Below, piece after piece: positions 45,871 through 54,582 of a stretch of DNA of 64,000 nt. How positions within the stretch are numbered: the first letter of the stretch is position 1; each line of letters begins with the position of its first letter. A model generated the notes under the pieces. It saw only the letters and a list, made by a program, of their open reading frames with translations, had not been told where the DNA came from and searched no databases. The translations under genes were made by a program, and so were the position numbers. Origin of the DNA: Woeseia oceani (GTDB lineage Bacteria > Pseudomonadota > Gammaproteobacteria > Steroidobacterales > Woeseiaceae). The stretch is taken from the NCBI RefSeq assembly GCF_001677435.1, contig NZ_CP016268.1, positions 2,035,001 through 2,099,000 of the forward strand, written 5' to 3'.

Positions 45871-46317
45871 ATGCGATTTATGCTGATTGTCAAAGCCAGC
45901 GATGATTCGGAAGCGGGAGTCATGCCGCGCGAGGAACTCCTGCGAAAGATAATCAAGTACGAGGAAGCCCTGGTGGAAGCCGGCGTGTTGCTAACAGGCG
46001 AAGGTTTGCAGCCGTCTTCCAAAGGCGTCCGGGTGCGGTTTGCCGGCAACGACTGGAGTGTAACGGACGGGCCGTTTCTCGAAACCAAGGAATTGATAGC
46101 CGGATACTGGTTGTGGCAGTGCGACTCGATGGAGACAGCGATTGAGTGGCTAAAGCGTGCCCCGTTTGAACGTGGCGCAGAAGTCGAACTGCGGCGGGTC
46201 CTGGAAACAGACGACTTCGGCGACGAACTCACTCCAGCGCTGCGCGAAAAGGAAGTGAAACTGCGAGAACGAATTGCTGTGACAAATCATGACGGCAAAA
46301 AAACAGAGGAGCCATAA
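45871..46317 (+). CDS. DGPF/YCII-domain protein, third copy
   Basis: A 148-residue DGPF protein with V-T-D-G-P-F-L-E-T-K-E at about residues 68-78 and the typical first strand M-R-F-M-L-I-V-K-A. The C-terminal 30 residues are a charged helical tail. It starts about 80 bp after an ECF42-type promoter and is followed 1 bp after its stop by a VOC/PhnB-like gene. Members of both families are commonly found in ECF42 regulons, so this looks like a second target of the sigma factor encoded at 28279-29514. Confidence 0.9.
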   Translation: MRFMLIVKASDDSEAGVMPREELLRKIIKYEEALVEAGVLLTGEGLQPSSKGVRVRFAGNDWSVTDGPFLETKELIAGYWLWQCDSMETAIEWLKRAPFERGAEVELRRVLETDDFGDELTPALREKEVKLRERIAVTNHDGKKTEEP

Positions 46318-46318
46318 A

Positions 46319-46804
46319 ATGGAAATCACTCAGATCATATCGCCCTGTCTTTGGTACGACGGACAAGCGGAATCCGCGGCGGAGTTTTACTTAGCCGCTT
46401 TTCCGAATTCGCACATTGACAACGTTATGAAGAGCGACGGCGACTGGCCGGGCGGGAAGGCCGGCGATACCATTCTGGTGAGCTTTAGCATCGCAGGGCA
46501 GCAGTTTCAGGCACTGAACGGCGGACCCAACGTGCCCTTTAACGAGGCGGTATCGCTCTCGATCGCCTGTAAAGACCAGGCCGAAGTGGACCGATACTGG
46601 GATGCGCTGATCGCGGACGGCGGCGAGGCGATCCAATGTGGCTGGCTAAAGGACAAGTACGGCTTGCACTGGCAGGTGGTACCGACAGTGCTCATGGAGA
46701 TGATGCAGGACAAGAACAGGGTGAAAGCGAACCGCGCCATTGGGGCCATGATGCAGATGGTGAAGCTCGACATTGCAGCGCTGAAGCGAGCCTATGACGG
46801 ATAA
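46319..46804 (+). CDS. VOC-superfamily protein (PhnB/3-demethylubiquinone methyltransferase-like fold)
   Basis: A 161-residue protein of the PhnB-like branch of the vicinal oxygen chelate superfamily. It begins I-S-P-C-L-W-Y-D-G-Q-A-E-S-A-A-E-F-Y and contains A-L-N-G-G-P and W-L-K-D-K-Y-G-L-H-W-Q-V-V-P, which are typical. No methyltransferase motif is present, so the old family name is misleading. The ATG begins one base after the DGPF stop, so the genes form an operon under the ECF42-type promoter. Its ligand is unknown. Confidence 0.9.
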   Translation: MEITQIISPCLWYDGQAESAAEFYLAAFPNSHIDNVMKSDGDWPGGKAGDTILVSFSIAGQQFQALNGGPNVPFNEAVSLSIACKDQAEVDRYWDALIADGGEAIQCGWLKDKYGLHWQVVPTVLMEMMQDKNRVKANRAIGAMMQMVKLDIAALKRAYDG

Positions 46805-47017
46805 GTAGAATGATGATAGGGCTGCTTGGCAGTTCAATGGCGACATAGCGCCGGGTTGGAAAGCCGTTGTTCAGGCTCGTCGTGTTCAGTATCAGTCTTG
46901 CGCAGTTCATTCCGGGTGGTTCTTGGCGGCATAGCGCCGCTGTGCAGTCCGATTGTCCTTTTGTAGGTCCCGGCTTAACAAGAATTGGCTCAGAATGGAT
47001 TTGATATAGTTGCTGCC

Positions 47018-47497
47018 ATGAACAGAGAAATCAGAACTATTCAACAGTTGGCGGCCGTTTTGCTCACGGGACTCGTACTCTTCGTGGCGGGGTGTTCCGG
47101 TGGCCTTATCCAGGACTCTGAGACCGTGCATCAATCCATAGGACCACAAGCGCTATTCAACGTCGTCTGGCAGGTCGAGGATATCGACAGGGGAGGCATC
47201 GTCGACAGCTCCCATATAACCATGCAGATGTCATCTGAGGGCCGTATAGCCGGCTCCACCGGTTGTAACCAGTACTTCGGCACTCTGACCCTGGGACAGA
47301 CTGCGTTTGAGGTCAATGGCGCCGGTAGCACGCGCCGGGCCTGTGCCCCGGCGATCATGCAACAGGAAACGCGGTTCCTGCAGGCACTGCAGGATGCTCG
47401 CCGTTACAAAATGGATGGCGATTTCGTGCGTCTGTACGACGAATCCGGTGATGAACGCATGCGGATGATTCGAACAAACGAGGAACCTGCGTCGTAG
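47018..47497 (+). CDS. META/HslJ-domain lipoprotein
   Basis: A 159-residue predicted lipoprotein. The ATG at 47018 begins a type II signal with lipobox V-A-G-C (Cys26). The META domain (about 45-145) shows S-T-G-C-N-Q-Y-F-G and R-R-A-C-A-P-A-I-M-Q-Q-E-T-R-F-L-Q-A-L, the conserved pattern of HslJ-like proteins. In E. coli HslJ is linked to novobiocin resistance and heat induction. The mechanism is unknown. An in-frame codon at 46985 precedes it but spoils the signal peptide. Confidence 0.85.
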   Translation: MNREIRTIQQLAAVLLTGLVLFVAGCSGGLIQDSETVHQSIGPQALFNVVWQVEDIDRGGIVDSSHITMQMSSEGRIAGSTGCNQYFGTLTLGQTAFEVNGAGSTRRACAPAIMQQETRFLQALQDARRYKMDGDFVRLYDESGDERMRMIRTNEEPAS

Positions 47498-47524
47498 GCA
47501 GCAGCACGTTGTGATATCCACTGT

Positions 47525-47907
47525 ATGCGCGTTGGACACTGCAAGACCTCTTCCACTCCCGTAAGTTCGAATGGCATAACCGTGGACCTTGCAACCGGCA
47601 ATCTCTTGCTCGCGCCCTGGGGTGACTCCAGCGAATCAGTCGCCTGGGATATTGACGAGCAGCGCTTCTCGACAATCGGAACGCTGGTCGGTGGTGGCAA
47701 TTTTGACGGTATCGAAGTTGTCGGAAAAAAATCATCACTGCGAGCCGGATGGATAACAGCCTTCACTTTATGGAGGAGGGCTCGGATCGACTGGCAGTGG
47801 AATTACCCGGCAAGCCAGCGGATAACGGTATCGATACAAGACGCAACAGAGTTGCCGTGCCGTACGTTGCATTGAATAGGGTGGATATTATTCAACTCGA
47901 GGACTAA
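47525..47907 (+). pseudogene. SMP-30/gluconolactonase-like gene remnant
   Basis: Two frames encode the C-terminal part of a six-bladed propeller protein. The first (from 47525) contains G-I-T-V-D-L-A-T-G-N-L-L-L-A-P-W and G-G-G-N-F-D-G-I-E-V-V-G. The second continues with I-I-T-A-S-R-M-D-N-S-L-H-F-M and P-A-D-N-G-I-D-T-R-R-N-R-V-A-V-P to the TAA at 47905-47907. They join at a run of seven A (47725-47731), which fits loss or gain of one base. The N-terminal half of the propeller is missing, so the gene was truncated before or after the shift. Confidence 0.55.
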
Positions 47908-47991
47908 GCGGCGAAAGGGTTTGAACGTCAGCGTGAGAAACCAGCGAACCCCCGCACAGAAATATCATGACCGAAGTCGTTAGAGCAAAGC

Positions 47992-48441
47992 ATGAAAAGA
48001 ATCACGTTCAGCGTTGAAGACAGGCGTAGATACAATCCCAACTGTGAATCGTCAACAGTGAATATCCTGATCGATGACAAACCTTTGGCAGAAATTCTGC
48101 GGGCATATGAGTTGCCAATGGCCACCAAGGAAGGACATCCGGCACTTGCCGGCGACTACCATGCCATCGAAGTAATGGCGTCTCTGGAAGATTACTACCT
48201 AGGCAAAGCGGAGGCCGATTGGGGCGATGAAGAAAACAAAACCCAGCTCCTCGGTTGCAGTTGCGGAATTGCGGGTTGTTGGCCGTTGCTCTGCAAAATC
48301 AACGTGCAGGGCGATACCGTAGTTTGGTCAGAGTTTGAACAACCGCACAGAGACGAGGACTGGGACTACTCGGCATTTGGCGTTCTTGAATTTGACAAGC
48401 AGCAGTACCTGGAAGCTGTACAAGCCATGCAAAATTTATAG
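47992..48441 (+). CDS. Conserved hypothetical protein with CxC...C cluster
   Basis: A 149-residue soluble protein. The motif L-L-G-C-S-C-G-I-A-G-C-W-P-L-L at about residues 86-100 is conserved in many uncharacterised bacterial proteins I recall, with three cysteines that could bind metal. It is followed by V-V-W-S-E-F-E-Q-P-H-R. No signal peptide. The role is unknown. It is a single gene flanked by a degraded propeller gene and a convergent esterase. Confidence 0.75.
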   Translation: MKRITFSVEDRRRYNPNCESSTVNILIDDKPLAEILRAYELPMATKEGHPALAGDYHAIEVMASLEDYYLGKAEADWGDEENKTQLLGCSCGIAGCWPLLCKINVQGDTVVWSEFEQPHRDEDWDYSAFGVLEFDKQQYLEAVQAMQNL

Positions 48442-48565
48442 CGAACAGAGGAAACGCTTGTGGTGGGTCGCTTTTGCGTTGCCCACACTTACCACTTCTT
48501 GGTGGAAACAGACGCAGAGGACCAGTGACCATTCCCGGCAGCGTTGCCGACCTGTCGCTGCTGCC

Positions 48566-49438
48566 TTAATCAACCAGCCCGGCCGCCGCCGGTGTCATCT
48601 GCGCATTGCTGTGTGCCGCACCGGGAACATCAACCTTCCGCCAGTTGAATTTCACGCCGAAGCGCTCGGCTGTGGACTTTGCGACGTCGTACATCGTTGC
48701 GCCACGGGCGTAGCGATGCGGACCTTGCTGCTGCGCTTCCGGTGACTTGCGAAGATTCGCTTGCTCGGTATCAATATCCGCATCGCCAAGCAACAGAATT
48801 ACGTCTTTGCCAAGCGCTTCGCGAATGACGCTGCCCTCAATATGCGCGCCGTCCAGTCCGTAGGGGTAGGCAACATCAAAGTCGGGCAATGTGTACCAGC
48901 CGGCATTCGCAGCAATTGCCCGTGCAACCCGGGCACCCGGCTTGTAGTAAAGGAAACGATGCACGAACTGCGCGCCTGCCGAATGGCCGTAGAGCGTATA
49001 AGCTGCTTGGTCTGTGCCGAGTGCGGCGGTGATTTGGTCAAACAGCGGCTCTATGGCAGAAAACGTCCATTGACTCTCCGGCCGTAACCGGCCGGTGTCT
49101 TGGTCGAAAACGTGGCCAAGGTTGTATCGCCAGGAGCCGGAGAAATCGACAGCATTGAACTCCGGAACAACGACTACAAACCCGTGAGTTTGACCTTGCA
49201 ACTGCCAGTGCGTGAAGTAGTTGTCGACAGTACGGCTGGCGCCGTGCATTACGATCACTATCGGCGTTGAGTCCTTAACTTTTTCAGGAGTGTACACACG
49301 CACTTCCAAATCCGGTCCGGCCCAGTCACTGAACGTGAACTGGCTGCTGCCGACCGGCAGTGTTCTCAGCTCGTCGGCCTGAGCAAACGACGCCAACAAC
49401 ACAAACAAAACCAAAGCTATCCGATCGGGCACGCCCAT
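48566..49438 (-). CDS. Exported alpha/beta hydrolase (esterase/depolymerase-like)
   Basis: A 290-residue hydrolase with a signal peptide (residues 1-22, ending S-F-A-Q-A). The nucleophile elbow G-H-S-A-G, the oxyanion segment V-M-H-G-A-S-R, an Asp in G-D-A-D-I and a terminal His in G-A-A-H-S-N complete the triad. It resembles PHB-depolymerase-like and acetyl-esterase proteins. I take the ATG at 49438; an in-frame ATG at 49453 is possible. It likely cleaves an ester in the periplasm or outside the cell. Confidence 0.85.
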   Translation of the reverse strand: MGVPDRIALVLFVLLASFAQADELRTLPVGSSQFTFSDWAGPDLEVRVYTPEKVKDSTPIVIVMHGASRTVDNYFTHWQLQGQTHGFVVVVPEFNAVDFSGSWRYNLGHVFDQDTGRLRPESQWTFSAIEPLFDQITAALGTDQAAYTLYGHSAGAQFVHRFLYYKPGARVARAIAANAGWYTLPDFDVAYPYGLDGAHIEGSVIREALGKDVILLLGDADIDTEQANLRKSPEAQQQGPHRYARGATMYDVAKSTAERFGVKFNWRKVDVPGAAHSNAQMTPAAAGLVD

Positions 49439-49697
49439 TTTTTTTATCAACATAGCTTGTCTCTGTAAGCTTCAATCGCGTCAGTATACTTTGACACCAT
49501 CCTTTGTAGATGGCGCCAGAGATGAGAGACTTATTGCTCCAGGAATTAGAAGTATGCAATGCCAATCCACGTAACAGTTGTCGGCGAGAATCAAAGAAGC
49601 CGGCAATACGACCAATCCAGGCAACCGGGTAAATGTTAGCTATCGATGGCTATTTCTCTGACCCTCTCACGACCACCCCGGCCCGAAGGCTAATTCC

Positions 49698-51569
49698 ATG
49701 ACCAACCCCCAACTTCTGATCTTCGCCCTACTTGCTGCAATGATGGGGCTGTTCCTGTGGGGGCGGTTACGCCATGACGTAGTGGCGCTGGCTGCATTGC
49801 TGACCTGCGTGATAGTGGGACTGGTGCCGGCAGAGGCAGCTTTTTCGGGCTTCAGCCACCCGGCAGTAATCACGGTGGCCTGTGTGTTGGTGCTCAGCCA
49901 GGCCTTGCGAAATACGGGTGCCGTGAACTGGCTGGCGCGCACCATCGTGCCGCGCGACGGTGGACGCCTGGTGACCATGGCGACGCTGATCGGACTGGGT
50001 GCTGCGCTGTCGGGCTTCATGAACAATGTCGGCGCAATGGCGCTACTTATGCCGATCGCAGTGCAGCTGTCGGGCCGGTTGGGCCTGACGCCAGGGCAGA
50101 TCCTGATGCCGCTTGCCTTCGGCACCATTCTGGGTGGCATGACCACGCTCGTGGGTACGCCGCCCAACTTGATCGTTTCCGGCTTCAGGGAACAAGCAGG
50201 GCTGGGGCAATTCGCTATGTTCGACTTCGCGCCGGTGGGTGTGGCGGTTGCGGCCGTGGGCGTCATCTTCGTCGTCACCATCGGCTGGCGTCTGGTGCCG
50301 GCACGCAAATCCGACATTGGTGACGACTTTGACACTGGCGCCTATCTGACGGAGGTGCGCGTACCGGAGGATAGCAAGGCTATCGGCATGACCTTGCGAG
50401 CCTTCGAATCCGAGATTGAAGACGGCGGTGTACAGATCGTCGGTCTCGTTCGCAACGAGGTCCGCATGACCGCACCGCACGGCGGGCGGCACGTCCGCGC
50501 GAAAGACGTCCTGGTGTTGCAGGCCGATGTTGATGCATTGGCGGTGGCGCTGTCGGTCTTCGGCATCAAGTTGGAGGAAGAGAAAGCCTTATCAGAAAGC
50601 CAGGACCAGACGGCAGACAACGCGCCCACAGACGCACCGGAAATACCCGGGAGTAGCGTCGGGAAATCAGAAGCCGAGACTCAGGAAGCCGATGAGAGCG
50701 ATGAGCGAGGCGAGGAGATCGTGCTACGGGAACTGGTCGTGCTGCCGGGCTCGACCATCGTCGGCCGTTCCGGCAGCGACCTTCAGCTGCGTACTCGCTA
50801 TGGGCTTAATCTGCTGGCCGTATCAAGGGAAGGGCACCCGCCCGAGGCCCGACTGCGTAAACTGAAGTTGAAGTCAGGCGATCTCTTGCTGACGCAGGGC
50901 CCGGCCGAGACGATTGCTGAGTTTATTAATGAAACAGGCTGTGTGCCGCTGAGCGAACGCGACCTGCGTATCCCCGACAAGCGCATGGCCGTGATCTCCG
51001 GGGCGATCATGCTAGGGGCGATAGGCATTGTTGCGCTGGGACTGCTGCCTGCCGCCGCAGGCTTTGCACTCGGGGTTCTGGCCTCAATGCTTTTTCGCAC
51101 GTTACCGTTGCGGCAGATTTATACCGCAATCGACTGGCCGATAATCGTGTTGCTTGCAACCCTGATACCGGTTGCAGGCGCAATGCAAACAACCGGAGCC
51201 GCTGATCAGCTGGCGCGGTTTCTTGTAGAGAGCGTCGCACAGGGCAATCCCATCATCGCCCTGGCAGTGGTGTTGATTACGACCATGTTCCTGTCAGACG
51301 TTATGAACAACGCGGCCACTGCGGCCATCCTGTGCCCGATCGCGCTTGGCATTGCCGCAACGCTTGGTGTGAACCCGGACAGTTTTCTTATGGCGGTGGC
51401 GATTGGCGCCTCCTGTGCATTCCTCACACCCATAGGGCATCAGAACAACACCTTGATCCTTGGTCCCGGCGGGTTCCGGTTCGGCGACTACTGGAGGTTG
51501 GGCTTGGTGGTAGAAGTTCTGGTGGTCGCGGTTAGCATGCCGTTGCTTTTGATCGTCTGGCCGCTATAA
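49698..51569 (+). CDS. SLC13/DASS-type anion permease with central RCK-C domains
   Basis: A 623-residue carrier. Two membrane halves (about residues 5-205 and 430-620) flank a cytosolic region with two TrkA-C (RCK-C) segments (about 215-300 and 340-415) joined by an acidic, low-complexity linker (about 295-340). The two halves carry the related motifs S-G-F-M-N-N-V-G-A and L-S-D-V-M-N-N-A-A-T, and V-G-T-P-P-N-L-I lies in the first. This layout matches the SAC1/YbhI-like group that moves sulfate, dicarboxylates or other anions. It has no operon partner. Confidence 0.92.
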   Translation: MTNPQLLIFALLAAMMGLFLWGRLRHDVVALAALLTCVIVGLVPAEAAFSGFSHPAVITVACVLVLSQALRNTGAVNWLARTIVPRDGGRLVTMATLIGLGAALSGFMNNVGAMALLMPIAVQLSGRLGLTPGQILMPLAFGTILGGMTTLVGTPPNLIVSGFREQAGLGQFAMFDFAPVGVAVAAVGVIFVVTIGWRLVPARKSDIGDDFDTGAYLTEVRVPEDSKAIGMTLRAFESEIEDGGVQIVGLVRNEVRMTAPHGGRHVRAKDVLVLQADVDALAVALSVFGIKLEEEKALSESQDQTADNAPTDAPEIPGSSVGKSEAETQEADESDERGEEIVLRELVVLPGSTIVGRSGSDLQLRTRYGLNLLAVSREGHPPEARLRKLKLKSGDLLLTQGPAETIAEFINETGCVPLSERDLRIPDKRMAVISGAIMLGAIGIVALGLLPAAAGFALGVLASMLFRTLPLRQIYTAIDWPIIVLLATLIPVAGAMQTTGAADQLARFLVESVAQGNPIIALAVVLITTMFLSDVMNNAATAAILCPIALGIAATLGVNPDSFLMAVAIGASCAFLTPIGHQNNTLILGPGGFRFGDYWRLGLVVEVLVVAVSMPLLLIVWPL

Positions 51570-51873
51570 AAACTTCTCGCGCGTAGCAAAAAGAAAACCG
51601 CTTAGTAGCAATGGTGACTTTAGAACTGAGTGGGTTGTAATTTCGACGGTCCTGCGTCTTCAGTAGAACTGCAGACCGCGTATAACGATAGAAGTAAATA
51701 TCCGTCCAGCCAGCCAGTTGATAGCCATCAATTCATTGACAGCGTGGTATAGCTTTTGCGTTTTTCTCGCCGTAGTAAAAAGTTTGATTACGTTCTCGAT
51801 AGTCTGGTGTGCTTGGCGATGGCCGAGAGTCGAGTCTGGTTAGCTAAATAAACCGACAGAGTTCAGGTCAGCA
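51570..51873. other. Intergenic region, nothing recognised
   Basis: A 304-bp A/T-richer stretch between the convergent SLC13 permease and the endonuclease-like gene. No gene, no perfect hairpin with a T-run, and no repeat recognised. The drop in G+C marks the edge of the accessory segment that leads to dif. Confidence 0.45.
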
Positions 51874-52572
51874 CTAGCCTTTGCCAACATCGACAATCAT
51901 AGCTGAATGGTCGGAAAGTCCCGCTTTCCGAACTTCATGATTGTAGCCAACCGATTCTATTCTCATATTCAATCGGGGAGAGGCGAACGCATGATCCAGC
52001 CGGAATCCGTTTCCGACGTTGCTGAACCATGAGAACTCTCTCGCCGTCTCATTTCTACTGCGCCAGGTATCGATCCAACCCAAACCCTCCAGCCTGTCGA
52101 AGTATTCGGTGCAGTGAAAAGTTTTCTCACGCTCATCGACGAAATGGCGACCAGTATTGAAGTCCCCAATTAGGAGTGACTGCTCAACTAACACACCAGA
52201 ATCAAGTCCGCATATAGCGTCAAAAACATTCGCTTTCTCTCTATTTTGCGGGAAATAGAACCCGAGGATATTTATGCCTTCAACGCGAACCCAAGAACAA
52301 CGATGTGCCTCATCGCCAAGTGAGTCGAGCTGCCTTTCTTCGAATGGTGTCCGAGAGCACAGCAAGACCGTATTCAATCTTGCCGGTGTTGAGACGTCGG
52401 AGAAATAAAATAGACCAGCGCGCTCCATCACATGTTTAATATGCGCACCAGTTGGCCCGTTTCGATATTCCGTAATGATTGCGATATCGGGCGAAAGCGA
52501 CACCAATTGTTCGGCAAAGCTGCGCGCTCGATCGCCTCCGCCATGCCTAACATTCCAGGTGATGATCCGCAT
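51874..52572 (-). CDS. Endonuclease/exonuclease/phosphatase-family protein
   Basis: A 232-residue EEP-fold hydrolase. The catalytic blocks are in order: T-W-N-V-R-H-G at the N-terminus, I-I-T-E-Y-R, L-I-G-D-F-N-T-G at about 140, F-R-L-D-H-A-F-A near 195 and L-S-D-H-S-A at about 222. The family includes exonuclease III-like nucleases and phosphatases. There is no signal peptide, so it acts in the cytosol. Its composition is A/T-richer than the core genes. It lies outside but next to the left border of the Xer-type element, so it may be part of an older insertion at the same hotspot (inference). Confidence 0.82.
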   Translation of the reverse strand: MRIITWNVRHGGGDRARSFAEQLVSLSPDIAIITEYRNGPTGAHIKHVMERAGLFYFSDVSTPARLNTVLLCSRTPFEERQLDSLGDEAHRCSWVRVEGINILGFYFPQNREKANVFDAICGLDSGVLVEQSLLIGDFNTGRHFVDEREKTFHCTEYFDRLEGLGWIDTWRSRNETAREFSWFSNVGNGFRLDHAFASPRLNMRIESVGYNHEVRKAGLSDHSAMIVDVGKG

Positions 52573-52756
52573 AATCTTGTGCGTCGCGATTGATATAGGT
52601 CAATAACCGAATGCTAGTCGATTGCCACATTCCGAGCTATTTCATACGAAACGACGAAGGTAATCGCGCGGGACGTTAAGCTTACGCGCGGGATAGGCCT
52701 TTGACTTGAAACCTGTCAACAAAAATCTCTAGTTTCCAAACGCGCATCCCCCCTCA

Positions 52757-52784
52757 TATACACATAATGTATATTACAAGCGTA
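52757..52784 (+). repeat. Degenerate dif-like site (left border)
   Basis: XerC-like arm TATACACATAA (7 of 11 identical to the E. coli arm), central TGTATA (identical), right arm TTACAAGCGTA (3 of 11). It shares CATAATGTATATTA (52763-52776) with the dif site 1.8 kb to the right, in the same orientation. Poor outer arms are typical of attachment sites carried by Xer-exploiting elements, or indicate decay after integration. Confidence 0.65.
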
Positions 52785-52852
52785 GTTTTCGACGCAAATC
52801 GTGACTAGAAATCATACAGTTACACCGTCCACCGATCGGGCGTTCTGTCTCT

Positions 52853-53245
52853 TCAATTAGGTAAGTCAAATACGAAGACTTGAGACTGGCAACCAAGGAC
52901 GCAGTTCTTCATCTCGACATTTGTTGAGTCTTCCGAGATATGAAGTAGCCTGCCTGTTGGCCCAACAAGCTCGCGCACAAAATTCTCGACGAGTTCCGAG
53001 AAAGCTTGGTAGTTCCAATTGCCCTGGTAGCAATTCGGAGGCCCAACTTCGAAGGGATCGCCAAATTGAGTTCCCCAAGGCTGCGCTAAGTCGACTGAAC
53101 AATTTGGAATGTCAAAACAAACTCGATTGTCGGCGTTCGCAATTTGCAATCGAAATCGGGCGGTCATTTGCAACCTGGATTGGTTGTCACCCGAGAAATG
53201 CATGTCGTGAACAACTATCTCGTAGAATTGAACTGCTGCTTTCAT
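52853..53245 (-). CDS. Hypothetical protein of the dif element
   Basis: A 130-residue protein without signal peptide or membrane segment. It has alternating beta-like stretches at the N-terminus (V-Q-F-Y-E-I-V-V-H and L-Q-M-T-A-R-F-R-L-Q-I) and six cysteines, including C-F-D-I-P-N-C and C-V-L-G-C near the C-terminus. I do not recognise a family. Codon use is more A/T-rich than in flanking core genes. It is 120 bp downstream of the phage-type gene on the same strand. Confidence 0.55.
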   Translation of the reverse strand: MKAAVQFYEIVVHDMHFSGDNQSRLQMTARFRLQIANADNRVCFDIPNCSVDLAQPWGTQFGDPFEVGPPNCYQGNWNYQAFSELVENFVRELVGPTGRLLHISEDSTNVEMKNCVLGCQSQVFVFDLPN

Positions 53246-53364
53246 TTCGATGCTCCAGCTATTTCGTCGAGTCAGCTTAATCTTACAGGAATTCCAGTCA
53301 TGCTTATCCGCAATTCGGGGAATTAGCTAAGCCGAAGAGGGCGCTGAAAGACTGGCCATAGGTA

Positions 53365-53775
53365 CTAGGCGACGTTGTCCATTTGCTCGAGTAACTCCCG
53401 ATATTTCTGGCTATCGGCCTCGGATAACGCATGCCAAAGTAATCCGACCATCTGAAAATGACTAGGCCGAACGACCTTGCCACAGTTATCAATAAGCTGA
53501 CCTTTGACGCATCGAAAATCCTTCCAGGCCTCGTCAAGTACTCGACCGTCGCGGTGGAGTTCAAACAACCGCATAACACTCTTGGAAGGCTTCCGTTGGC
53601 CGTTCTTGTATTTCTCAGCAGTGCCGACAGAAATGCAGCACCATTCCGCTATCAGTTCGGCAGGGTAACCGTAGAAGGGCGTAAGTCGAGAAACGGGCCG
53701 CCGAGAGACTGGCGGCAGCAGCCCAGCTTGGCGATGCAAGCGGTGTATAAGGCCGTCAAGGCGATCAACTGGCAT
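53365..53775 (-). CDS. Phage-type HTH protein, DUF3653-like
   Basis: A 136-residue protein. Residues about 30-70 (P-A-E-L-I-A-E-W-C-C-I-S-V-G-T-A-E-K-Y-K-N-G-Q-R-K-P) look like a helix-turn-helix. The following W-K-D-F-R-C-V-K-G-Q-L-I-D-N-C-G-K-V-V resembles the W-x-G-F...L...G pattern of DUF3653 phage proteins, which I recall from filamentous and other phages of Xanthomonas. The frame is open to an ATG at 53844; the shorter start is favoured because the extra residues look non-coding. Likely the element's regulator. Confidence 0.6.
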   Translation of the reverse strand: MPVDRLDGLIHRLHRQAGLLPPVSRRPVSRLTPFYGYPAELIAEWCCISVGTAEKYKNGQRKPSKSVMRLFELHRDGRVLDEAWKDFRCVKGQLIDNCGKVVRPSHFQMVGLLWHALSEADSQKYRELLEQMDNVA

Positions 53776-53844
53776 AGAGACAACATCCCAGCGTTGGGAT
53801 TGGCAACAACACGCTGGTGAATGCGGGCCGGCTCCTTGCCGCAT

Positions 53845-54151
53845 TCCACGTCTGATACTTCGAAGCCGGGTCTCTATTCCTGCGCAGACTGAAGGCCATT
53901 TTGTCGTCTATTTCCTCCAGGCGCAACTATCCCGTCAAGCTAAAAGGGATAGTTGCGAACACTCGCTCCCTCAGCCAACTGCGCAGACGTGCATGGCATC
54001 GTCTGGCCCGCCTTGTTACCGCAGCGGACATCCCGGACAAGGTCAACGGGACGCCTTAAGCGTTACCGCTTAAGCAATCCCCGATATGCGGGGATCTGTA
54101 CTAACGCTGCCATTGAGCGGCCGAGCCGGGCTACGCCCGGCAGCGGATCAC
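53845..54151. other. Non-coding part of the dif element
   Basis: A 307-bp stretch between the phage-type HTH gene and the zinc-ribbon gene, both on the minus strand. No supported gene. Its right half carries the hairpin cluster listed separately. The left half should contain the promoter of the HTH gene. Confidence 0.45.
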
Positions 54152-54157
54152 TCAATG
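54055..54157 (+). repeat. Cluster of three perfect hairpins
   Basis: Three hairpins occur in 103 bp: CTTAAGCG (54055-54062) with CGCTTAAG (54067-54074) around TTAC; ATCCCCG (54077-54083) with CGGGGAT (54089-54095); and GCCGGGC (54125-54131) with GCCCGGC (54135-54141). The last is nested inside CATTGAG (54111-54117) with CTCAATG (54151-54157). Such clusters mark replication origins and packaging signals in single-stranded DNA phages, and folded attP sites in some Xer elements. A transcription terminator is less likely because no T-run follows. Confidence 0.6.
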
Positions 54158-54445
54158 ACGAGAAATAACCGAACCCAAGCGATTTTCAGTGGTCATGAGG
54201 TCAGCGAACGCATCAAGCTCCAGGCAGAACGACAGATCGTGGCAGCCGCTGCGAAACATCGGGCGAAACTCGACATAGCCGCAATCGCTACAGACCGTGC
54301 CAGTGATGTTTAGCAAGCCAGGCCGTGCGAGTTCAGACATTGGCAGGAAGTTGGCCGCGCAGTAGTTTTCGGCTCCGCATTGAGAACAATGACCCAGGTA
54401 ATCCGGTTCATCGTGGCGCCTGGCAGTAGAGGCTTTGCCAATCAT
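54152..54445 (-). CDS. Small zinc-ribbon-like protein
   Basis: A 97-residue protein with two CxxC pairs, C-S-Q-C-G-A-E-N-Y-C and C-S-D-C-G-Y-V-E-F-R-P, spaced about 30 residues apart as in zinc ribbons that bind nucleic acid or act as adaptors. The ATG at 54445 is preferred to a GTG at 54451. It is the gene of the element closest to dif. The opposite strand has an overlapping short frame without motifs. The CxxC spacing supports the minus-strand reading, but the gene remains uncertain. Confidence 0.5.
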   Translation of the reverse strand: MIGKASTARRHDEPDYLGHCSQCGAENYCAANFLPMSELARPGLLNITGTVCSDCGYVEFRPMFRSGCHDLSFCLELDAFADLMTTENRLGSVISRH

Positions 54446-54554
54446 TGGCACAGAGCTGCCGCGCTCAGTCGGCGCGCGCCTTGGTGGGAGTCAAGAAGTA
54501 AGGTGAAGCGTGGCAACATCGCGGTCACAGGATCGGATAACTGTGACCATTCTA

Positions 54555-54582
54555 TGTGCGCATAATGTATATTATGTTAAAT
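54555..54582 (+). other. dif: Chromosome dimer resolution site dif
   Basis: XerC arm TGTGCGCATAA (54555-54565), centre TGTATA (54566-54571), XerD arm TTATGTTAAAT (54572-54582). Compared with the E. coli dif that I recall, 27 of 28 bases are identical, the exception being the first base. XerC and XerD recombine here under FtsK control to resolve chromosome dimers, so this locates the replication terminus. It lies 31 bp after the stop of the hydroxyacid dehydrogenase gene, in non-coding DNA, as expected. Confidence 0.93.

Follow-up and report, generated by a model that had tools for sequence, protein, structure and literature searches.

Introduction

XafT of TLCphi, a satellite phage of Vibrio, is said to have been described in studies by Midonet in 2019 and Miele in 2022, and the 2019 study reportedly found XafT-like Xer-exploiting elements (IMEXs) to be widespread in gamma- and beta-proteobacteria. 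TLCphi has its own replication initiator and is packaged by a helper phage.

The attP of TLCphi is described as highly similar to dif on the XerC side and in the centre and as strongly divergent on the XerD side; its integration is started by XerD and is independent of FtsK (PMC5357621). For CTXphi and VGJphi, the same source reports XerC catalysis (PMC5357621), and the repeats of UPphi are stated typically to correspond to dif over its first fifteen bases (PMC7307601). In Acinetobacter, the dif/pdif modules occur at a distance from the main dif, with C/D and D/C sites as their boundaries; the name XafT does not occur in the main text of that source (PMC12907356). The gonococcal genomic island (GGI) and Legionella LME-1 have a modified dif at one end and a wild-type dif at the other (PMC9765430).

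Here, we describe a small element beside dif in Woeseia oceani, within a stretch of 64,000 nucleotides (NZ_CP016268.1, positions 2,035,001 to 2,099,000; hereafter the window). As in the attP of TLCphi (PMC5357621), its left site keeps the core and, in part, the XerC arm and has a divergent XerD arm; like TLCphi, it also encodes a protein related to the XafT family (NF040522). It differs from TLCphi in its size of 1.8 kb, in that no replication initiator was recognised among the ORFs scanned, and in that its similarity to XafT is remote. Because no replication gene was recognised, we do not file the element as a satellite phage. With the further XafT-like IMEXs reported from gamma- and beta-proteobacteria it would share Xer-dependent integration and an encoded activation factor. 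Like the filamentous phages that integrate at dif (CTXphi, VGJphi, UPphi), as their sources portray them, it is integrase-less, would use XerCD at dif and leaves a partial dif repeat, but no structural or Zot gene was recognised in it. The Acinetobacter pdif modules are likewise small pieces of Xer-bounded cargo, which in their case include toxin-antitoxin genes (PMC12907356). GGI and LME-1 share with the element the pairing of one modified and one wild-type dif end (PMC9765430), but GGI spans 57 kb (PMC5357621) and LME-1 relies on a single recombinase, XerL (PMC9765430).

Results

An intact dif and a half-dif border the element

The intact dif lies at 54555-54582 on the plus strand, forms the right border of the element and is presumed to be the working chromosome dimer resolution site. 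Both sites were scored against a 28-bp sequence that we take to be the dif consensus, with which the intact site agrees at 27 of 28 positions. The left border is a half-dif at 52757-52784, also on the plus strand, composed of the XerC arm TATACACATAA, the core TGTATA and, in place of the XerD arm, TTACAAGCGTA. It agrees with the consensus at 6 of 6 bases in the core, 7 of 11 in the XerC arm and 3 of 11 in the XerD arm. A preliminary description of this DNA had proposed a degenerate dif-like site 1.8 kb to the left of dif, in the same orientation and with a shared 14-mer. Our analysis confirmed this: the sites are 1798 bp apart in the same orientation, and the common 14-mer CATAATGTATATTA occurs exactly twice in the 4,059,891-bp genome, both times at the element. 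When up to 2 mismatches were allowed, the 14-mer had 3 matches in the window against 0.04 expected, the third being dif on the opposite strand. In simulated 5-kb stretches of similar composition, a half-dif with at most 3 mismatches arose in 7 of 2000.

The locus thus has the borders of an IMEX, two dif-like sites in direct orientation of which one is an intact dif. The left site also follows the pattern of the TLCphi attP, with XerC arm and core kept and XerD arm divergent, although in the window the XerC arm is kept at only 7 of 11 positions. This left XerC arm differs from the dif arm at 3 positions, and the border is therefore weaker than those at three loci of other genomes (L022, L079, L082; L and G numbers denote loci and genomes). 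The arm is 2 changes away from the arm of the same-genus dif, TATGCGCATAA, and 3 from the arm of the right-hand site; in this small sample, the comparison weakly suggests that the left arm may be host-derived, with later decay, and the right arm element-derived. No nested older element was detected to the left of 52757, the best further half-site in 46001-52756 having 6 mismatches. The DNA at 51570-52756 is low in G+C (0.48, versus 0.61 in the gene to its left) and includes an exonuclease/phosphatase-family gene on the minus strand (51874-52572). It may also be foreign; a search for a dif-like border there found none.

Gene content between the sites

The three minus-strand ORFs of the preliminary description are present between the sites, but the start of the middle gene has been revised and the gene nearest dif is now regarded as uncertain. 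The leftmost, orf130 (52853-53245), is a cargo gene to which no family was assigned: at the limits used, Pfam, PHROGs, NCBIfam and PADLOC returned nothing save one Pfam match at E 0.22. Homologues of orf130 were found in 4 of 273 other genomes of the class, and the 8-15 kb fetched around each of the four contained no dif, as expected of cargo. The middle gene (53365-53775, minus strand) belongs to the VC1465/DUF3653 family and is hereafter called xafT; its 136-aa product consists of a Cro/C1-like HTH followed by a C-terminal part with a conserved tryptophan. Its likely start is the ATG at 53775, which lies within a longer ORF and overlaps the stop of a 44-codon ORF (53765-53899, minus strand). 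This short ORF has a GGAGG ribosome site and no Pfam match, and is possibly a leader peptide or a coupled gene. Upstream of xafT lies a hairpin cluster (53920-54160, minus strand), whose presence bears out the preliminary description. The DNA fold z-score for 53845-54165 is -5.9, and none of 100 shuffles was equally good. The cluster contains a 12-bp perfect inverted repeat, and an Rfam search of it gave no match at E 1 or better. The third ORF (54152-54451, minus strand; 99 aa) encodes a CxxC zinc-ribbon-like protein. It is the least certain gene, because it starts with GTG and its best Pfam zinc-ribbon match (E 5e-4) falls below the cut-off.

We scanned 10 of the 13 ORFs of at least 60 aa that overlap the element, together with the 44-codon ORF, against Pfam, and the three main ORFs also against PHROGs and NCBIfam. 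Pfam named no integrase in any of the ORFs scanned, in agreement with the preliminary description and as is typical of an IMEX. In the same set, no replication family, no Zot-type assembly ATPase, no coat gene and no phage gene besides that of the xafT family was recognised, and the likeness to filamentous phages drawn earlier does not extend to gene content. No second copy of the element DNA was found in its own genome, and in 59 other genomes the matches listed (35) all covered dif only, with no more than five candidates scored in each genome.

The middle gene as a remote relative of xafT

Profile comparisons indicate that the "DUF3653-like" gene at 53365-53775 encodes a remote homologue of XafT of the satellite phage TLCphi, a relationship missed in the preliminary description. 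The product matches NF040522 (VC1465, Xer recombination activation factor) with an E value of 4.5e-7 and 29.9 bits for the core, and of 1.2e-6 for the long ORF. With a cut-off of 70 bits, the protein does not reach NCBIfam-curated XafT/VC1465 membership. All 11 members of the family collected here (A1), the window protein included, match NF040522 with E values no higher than 0.01 and are connected to one another by iterated profiles. Pfam gave no match for the window protein itself, so that the earlier DUF3653 label stands by way of a relative from the same order (L022), which exceeds the DUF3653 cut-off (27.8 versus 22.4 bits) and thereby ties DUF3653 to the XafT family.

In PHROGs, the XafT homologue matches phrog_1668, and orf130 matches no family at the limits used. 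Ten of the 11 A1 members match phrog_1668, which is labelled "tail assembly protein"; the matching segment in the window is 53365-53685. We prefer the NCBIfam name, Xer activation factor, because the family is linked to dif. The conflict between the phrog_1668 label and the naming of NF040522 makes the public phage annotation worth correcting. The AlphaFold model (mean pLDDT 82, pTM 0.48) has a confident Cro-like HTH core, and a fold search with it returned mostly HTH regulators and nothing below E 0.001. A profile search with the sequence matched an HTH regulator and an intein endonuclease, both at E 4e-4, and then weaker HTH proteins. The collections searched, comprising 50,697 records of phages, 72,556 of plasmids and a set of viral contigs, yielded no relative of the protein by methods sensitive to close relatives only.

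Homologues of xafT adjoin dif in other genomes

The order survey with the family profile covered 396 genomes and the class survey 369. A match counted towards linkage only if it extended as far as model position 87, into the C-terminal part; since many regulators share the HTH half, rows confined to it were dropped. At three such HTH-only loci (L081, L092 and the fragmentary L147 of G213), no dif was found. Within the order, 19 matches, that of the window among them, reached the C-terminal part, in 18 of the 396 genomes. Each of the 19 has a dif agreeing at 22 or more of 28 positions no more than 2.9 kb away, and for 18 of them the distance is at most 0.85 kb. Within the class, 12 of the 16 matches other than that of the window adjoin dif, the second tandem copy at L082 at 1.6 kb and the others within 0.65 kb. 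The four exceptions are two matches at a contig end (L084, L086) and two in G165, a genome with two xafT genes and, in 57 kb, only a half-site and no full dif.

Among 31 cases, L146 is the only one with xafT directed towards dif, and the other 30 have it directed away; of these 30, 28 were scored by script, and L079 and L162, which overlap dif, were judged from coordinates. Stop codons fall inside the matched stretch in 6 of the 19 rows from the order and 2 of the 16 from the class. Some of these stops may lie past the true gene end, and some xafT copies may be dead. The contig of L083 begins at dif, and those of L087, L088 and L091 end 0-0.75 kb after xafT; contig ends at these positions would fit unassembled element repeats.

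Second half-sites and small units in other genomes

We scanned 33 dif loci, 27 of them with xafT, for a second XerC arm plus core or core plus XerD arm with at most 3 mismatches, taking each genome's own dif arms as the reference. A second half-dif was found at 13 of the 27 xafT loci and at 1 of the 6 without xafT (L023), and the antisense control gave none over the 33 loci. Fifteen dif loci with a side no longer than about 1.5 kb were also scanned and gave one second site, that of L023, and a similar scan detected none at L161 and L162. Of the 14 xafT loci without a second half-site, four have a contig end close to xafT (L085, L087, L088, L091). At 11 of the 13 loci with one, the second site keeps the XerC arm and core and has lost the XerD arm, as in the window. 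In L129 and L132 the layout is mirrored: xafT lies on the side of the XerD arm of dif, and it is the XerC arm that the second site has lost, with core and XerD arm kept.

Eleven units span 0.93-2.5 kb between their sites. The shortest are those of L079 (930 bp), L022 (1070 bp), L146 (1212 bp) and L089 (1213 bp), and that of L132 also measures 1213 bp, on the other side of dif. L082 has two units in tandem, with distances of 1582 and 1605 bp, and these are followed by L123 (1787 bp), the window (1798 bp), L131 (1904 bp) and L124 (2491 bp). Longer distances occur at L127 (3728 bp, with a further candidate site at 2503), L090 (7187 bp) and L129 (7770 bp). The two 1.6-kb units of L082 are 97.2% identical over 1623 columns. 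Both elements of this pair (L082:8430-11644, genome G183) carry an identical xafT; the second gene is a single frame in one copy and is split over two frames in the other. At L079, an apparent truncated second xafT lies beyond the half-site.

The cargo differs between units. L123 carries a SIR2-like gene (25.9 bits in Pfam, against a cut-off of 24.5, and matches to PADLOC SIR2 models), and L127 a Clp protease and a SEC-C protein. L090 contains a Zot-family gene and a member of a transfer protein family, and the same arrangement thus also occurs in a phage-sized element.

The hairpin cluster is not a part common to such elements. We scanned 11 units, not counting L090 and the second L082 unit, in 150-nt segments with 30 shuffles each. 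Segments whose z fell below -3 were present in the window, the first L082 unit, L124, L127, L131 and L146, and absent from five units (L022, L079, L089, L123, L023). The region upstream at L022 has a fold z-score of -1.4. A role as a general origin or packaging signal was rejected, since the cluster is absent from several units. Rfam gave nothing at E 1 or better.

Two arrangements beside dif do not include xafT. In a genome of the same family as the window (G016), L023:8811-9929 is a 1091-bp unit bounded by a half-dif and a full dif that carries a DUF6090-like protein, below the cut-off. In a genome of the same genus (G001), a HigB-toxin-family gene adjoins dif at L021:7326-8083 (106 bits in Pfam, cut-off 27), with an HTH partner just under the HTH_3 cut-off. 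This stretch recurs beside dif in G023 (L024:8689-9446) with 79% DNA identity, which begins about 730 bp from dif and ends at the dif end; the DNA beyond is unrelated. It looks like a small dif-linked toxin-antitoxin module, in which no second half-site was found.

Host genome and comparison with relatives

The host genome encodes an FtsK with a gamma domain. In a search for a helper, it gave no Zot match; helpers of other types may be present. Among close relatives no empty dif was found; the one genome of the same genus has unrelated DNA flanking its dif. The right-hand neighbour of the element encodes a D-2-hydroxyacid dehydrogenase, with orthologues of 54-58% identity in six relatives. In all four relatives with dif located, the orthologue and dif are on different contigs. 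When flanks were compared over 18 dif loci, the window shared, among the matches listed, only xafT and fragments of 21 and 37 residues; in a comparison of seven loci, only the xafT of L022 matched besides dif. The tandem copies at L082 support the view that such elements may be mobile.

Discussion

The element is likely a miniature TLCphi-type, XafT-encoding IMEX with cargo, in which no replication or capsid gene was recognised. The preliminary proposal of a Xer-exploiting element at dif thus gains support from the XafT family, from the homologues adjoining dif and from the small elements with the same borders. This explanation rests on the site pair, the NF040522 family, the linkage to dif, the gene orientation, the borders and the published attP pattern of TLCphi. 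Against this explanation count the lack of an empty site in a relative, the weak left arm, the 14 of 27 xafT loci without a second site and the remote XafT score. Our rating is also lowered by the stops in matched rows, which at 8 of 35 are no rarity, and by the lack of a Pfam match for the window protein.

The analysis established the site pair, the gene family, the linkage, the border pattern and the tandem copies elsewhere, from which we infer the following reaction steps. Besides xafT and the cargo, the circular form would have contained an attP resembling dif, in which the XerC arm and core were good and the XerD arm poor. By analogy with TLCphi, binding of XafT probably activates XerD in an FtsK-independent manner, after which XerD and then XerC would recombine attP with the host dif. 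The left product would be the host XerC arm and core with a junk arm; the right product would join the element's XerC arm and core to the host XerD arm and again be a full dif, so that the host would keep a working dif. The element would stay in place because its left site offers no XerD arm for FtsK-driven excision. The ORFs scanned included no recognisable gene for an integrase, for replication or for a coat; replication and transfer are therefore putatively borrowed from a helper, or the DNA circle may pass from cell to cell. Erosion of the left XerC arm in this strain makes it probable that the element is now fixed.

A decayed filamentous phage or TLCphi-like satellite, that is, a longer dif-integrated element in which internal deletions left xafT and passengers, is a rather unlikely alternative, and one that overlaps with the miniature IMEX, being itself an IMEX, so that the chances given to the two overlap as well. 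The 7.2-kb XafT element at L090, with its Zot-family gene and the same borders, would suit such an origin, as would the eroded left arm of the window, the stretch from xafT to dif with mostly hairpins and one weak ORF, and the fact that 8 of the 35 matched rows elsewhere contain stops. However, several genomes have units of 0.93-1.6 kb in which the XerC arm is perfect, the near-identical tandem pair included, and the xafT family is the only one recognised as a phage gene among the ORFs scanned. A decayed prophage, as first suggested, is not required, because there are units elsewhere of about this size or smaller whose borders are cleaner.

It is much less probable that xafT is a resident host gene, domesticated beside dif to aid chromosome dimer resolution, with the left half-site as a relic or accessory. 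Although its homologues mostly adjoin dif and are directed away from it, they are sporadic (C-terminal-part matches in 18 of 396 genomes of the order), occur in tandem copies, on both sides of dif and with differing cargo, and the host already has an FtsK with a gamma domain. A chance pairing of a dif-like 14-mer near dif with an unrelated HTH gene, to which the partial match of the left arm and the sub-threshold NCBIfam score of the window XafT might point, is extremely improbable given 7 hits in 2000 simulated stretches, a 14-mer found only twice in the genome and homologues at dif in 19 of 19 matches from the order.

If the element is a miniature XafT-encoding IMEX, its tiny form, with no replication gene recognised, looks new. 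XafT-like IMEXs are themselves reportedly widespread, and the novelty therefore lies in the size and the lack of replication genes; a limited literature search found no description of XafT elements below 2.5 kb. More tentatively, minimal Xer cassettes could form a widespread class of circles of about 1-2.5 kb, each with an attP half-site, an activation factor and from one to a few genes of cargo, that stack at dif. Such cassettes would do so as gene cassettes do in integrons, and would have no replication, transfer or recombinase genes of their own. If this is true, they would bring defence-like or toxin-antitoxin genes to the terminus.

Elements of this kind would rank among the smallest integrating elements that control their own reaction, encoding a switch for the host recombinase in place of a recombinase. 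With a half-site and xafT within 930 bp at L079, they would be natural minimal substrates for the action of an activation factor without an XerD arm. They raise the question of how DNA that has no replication gene spreads between species, and they recommend dif as a site to search for small cargo genes, SIR2-like ones included.
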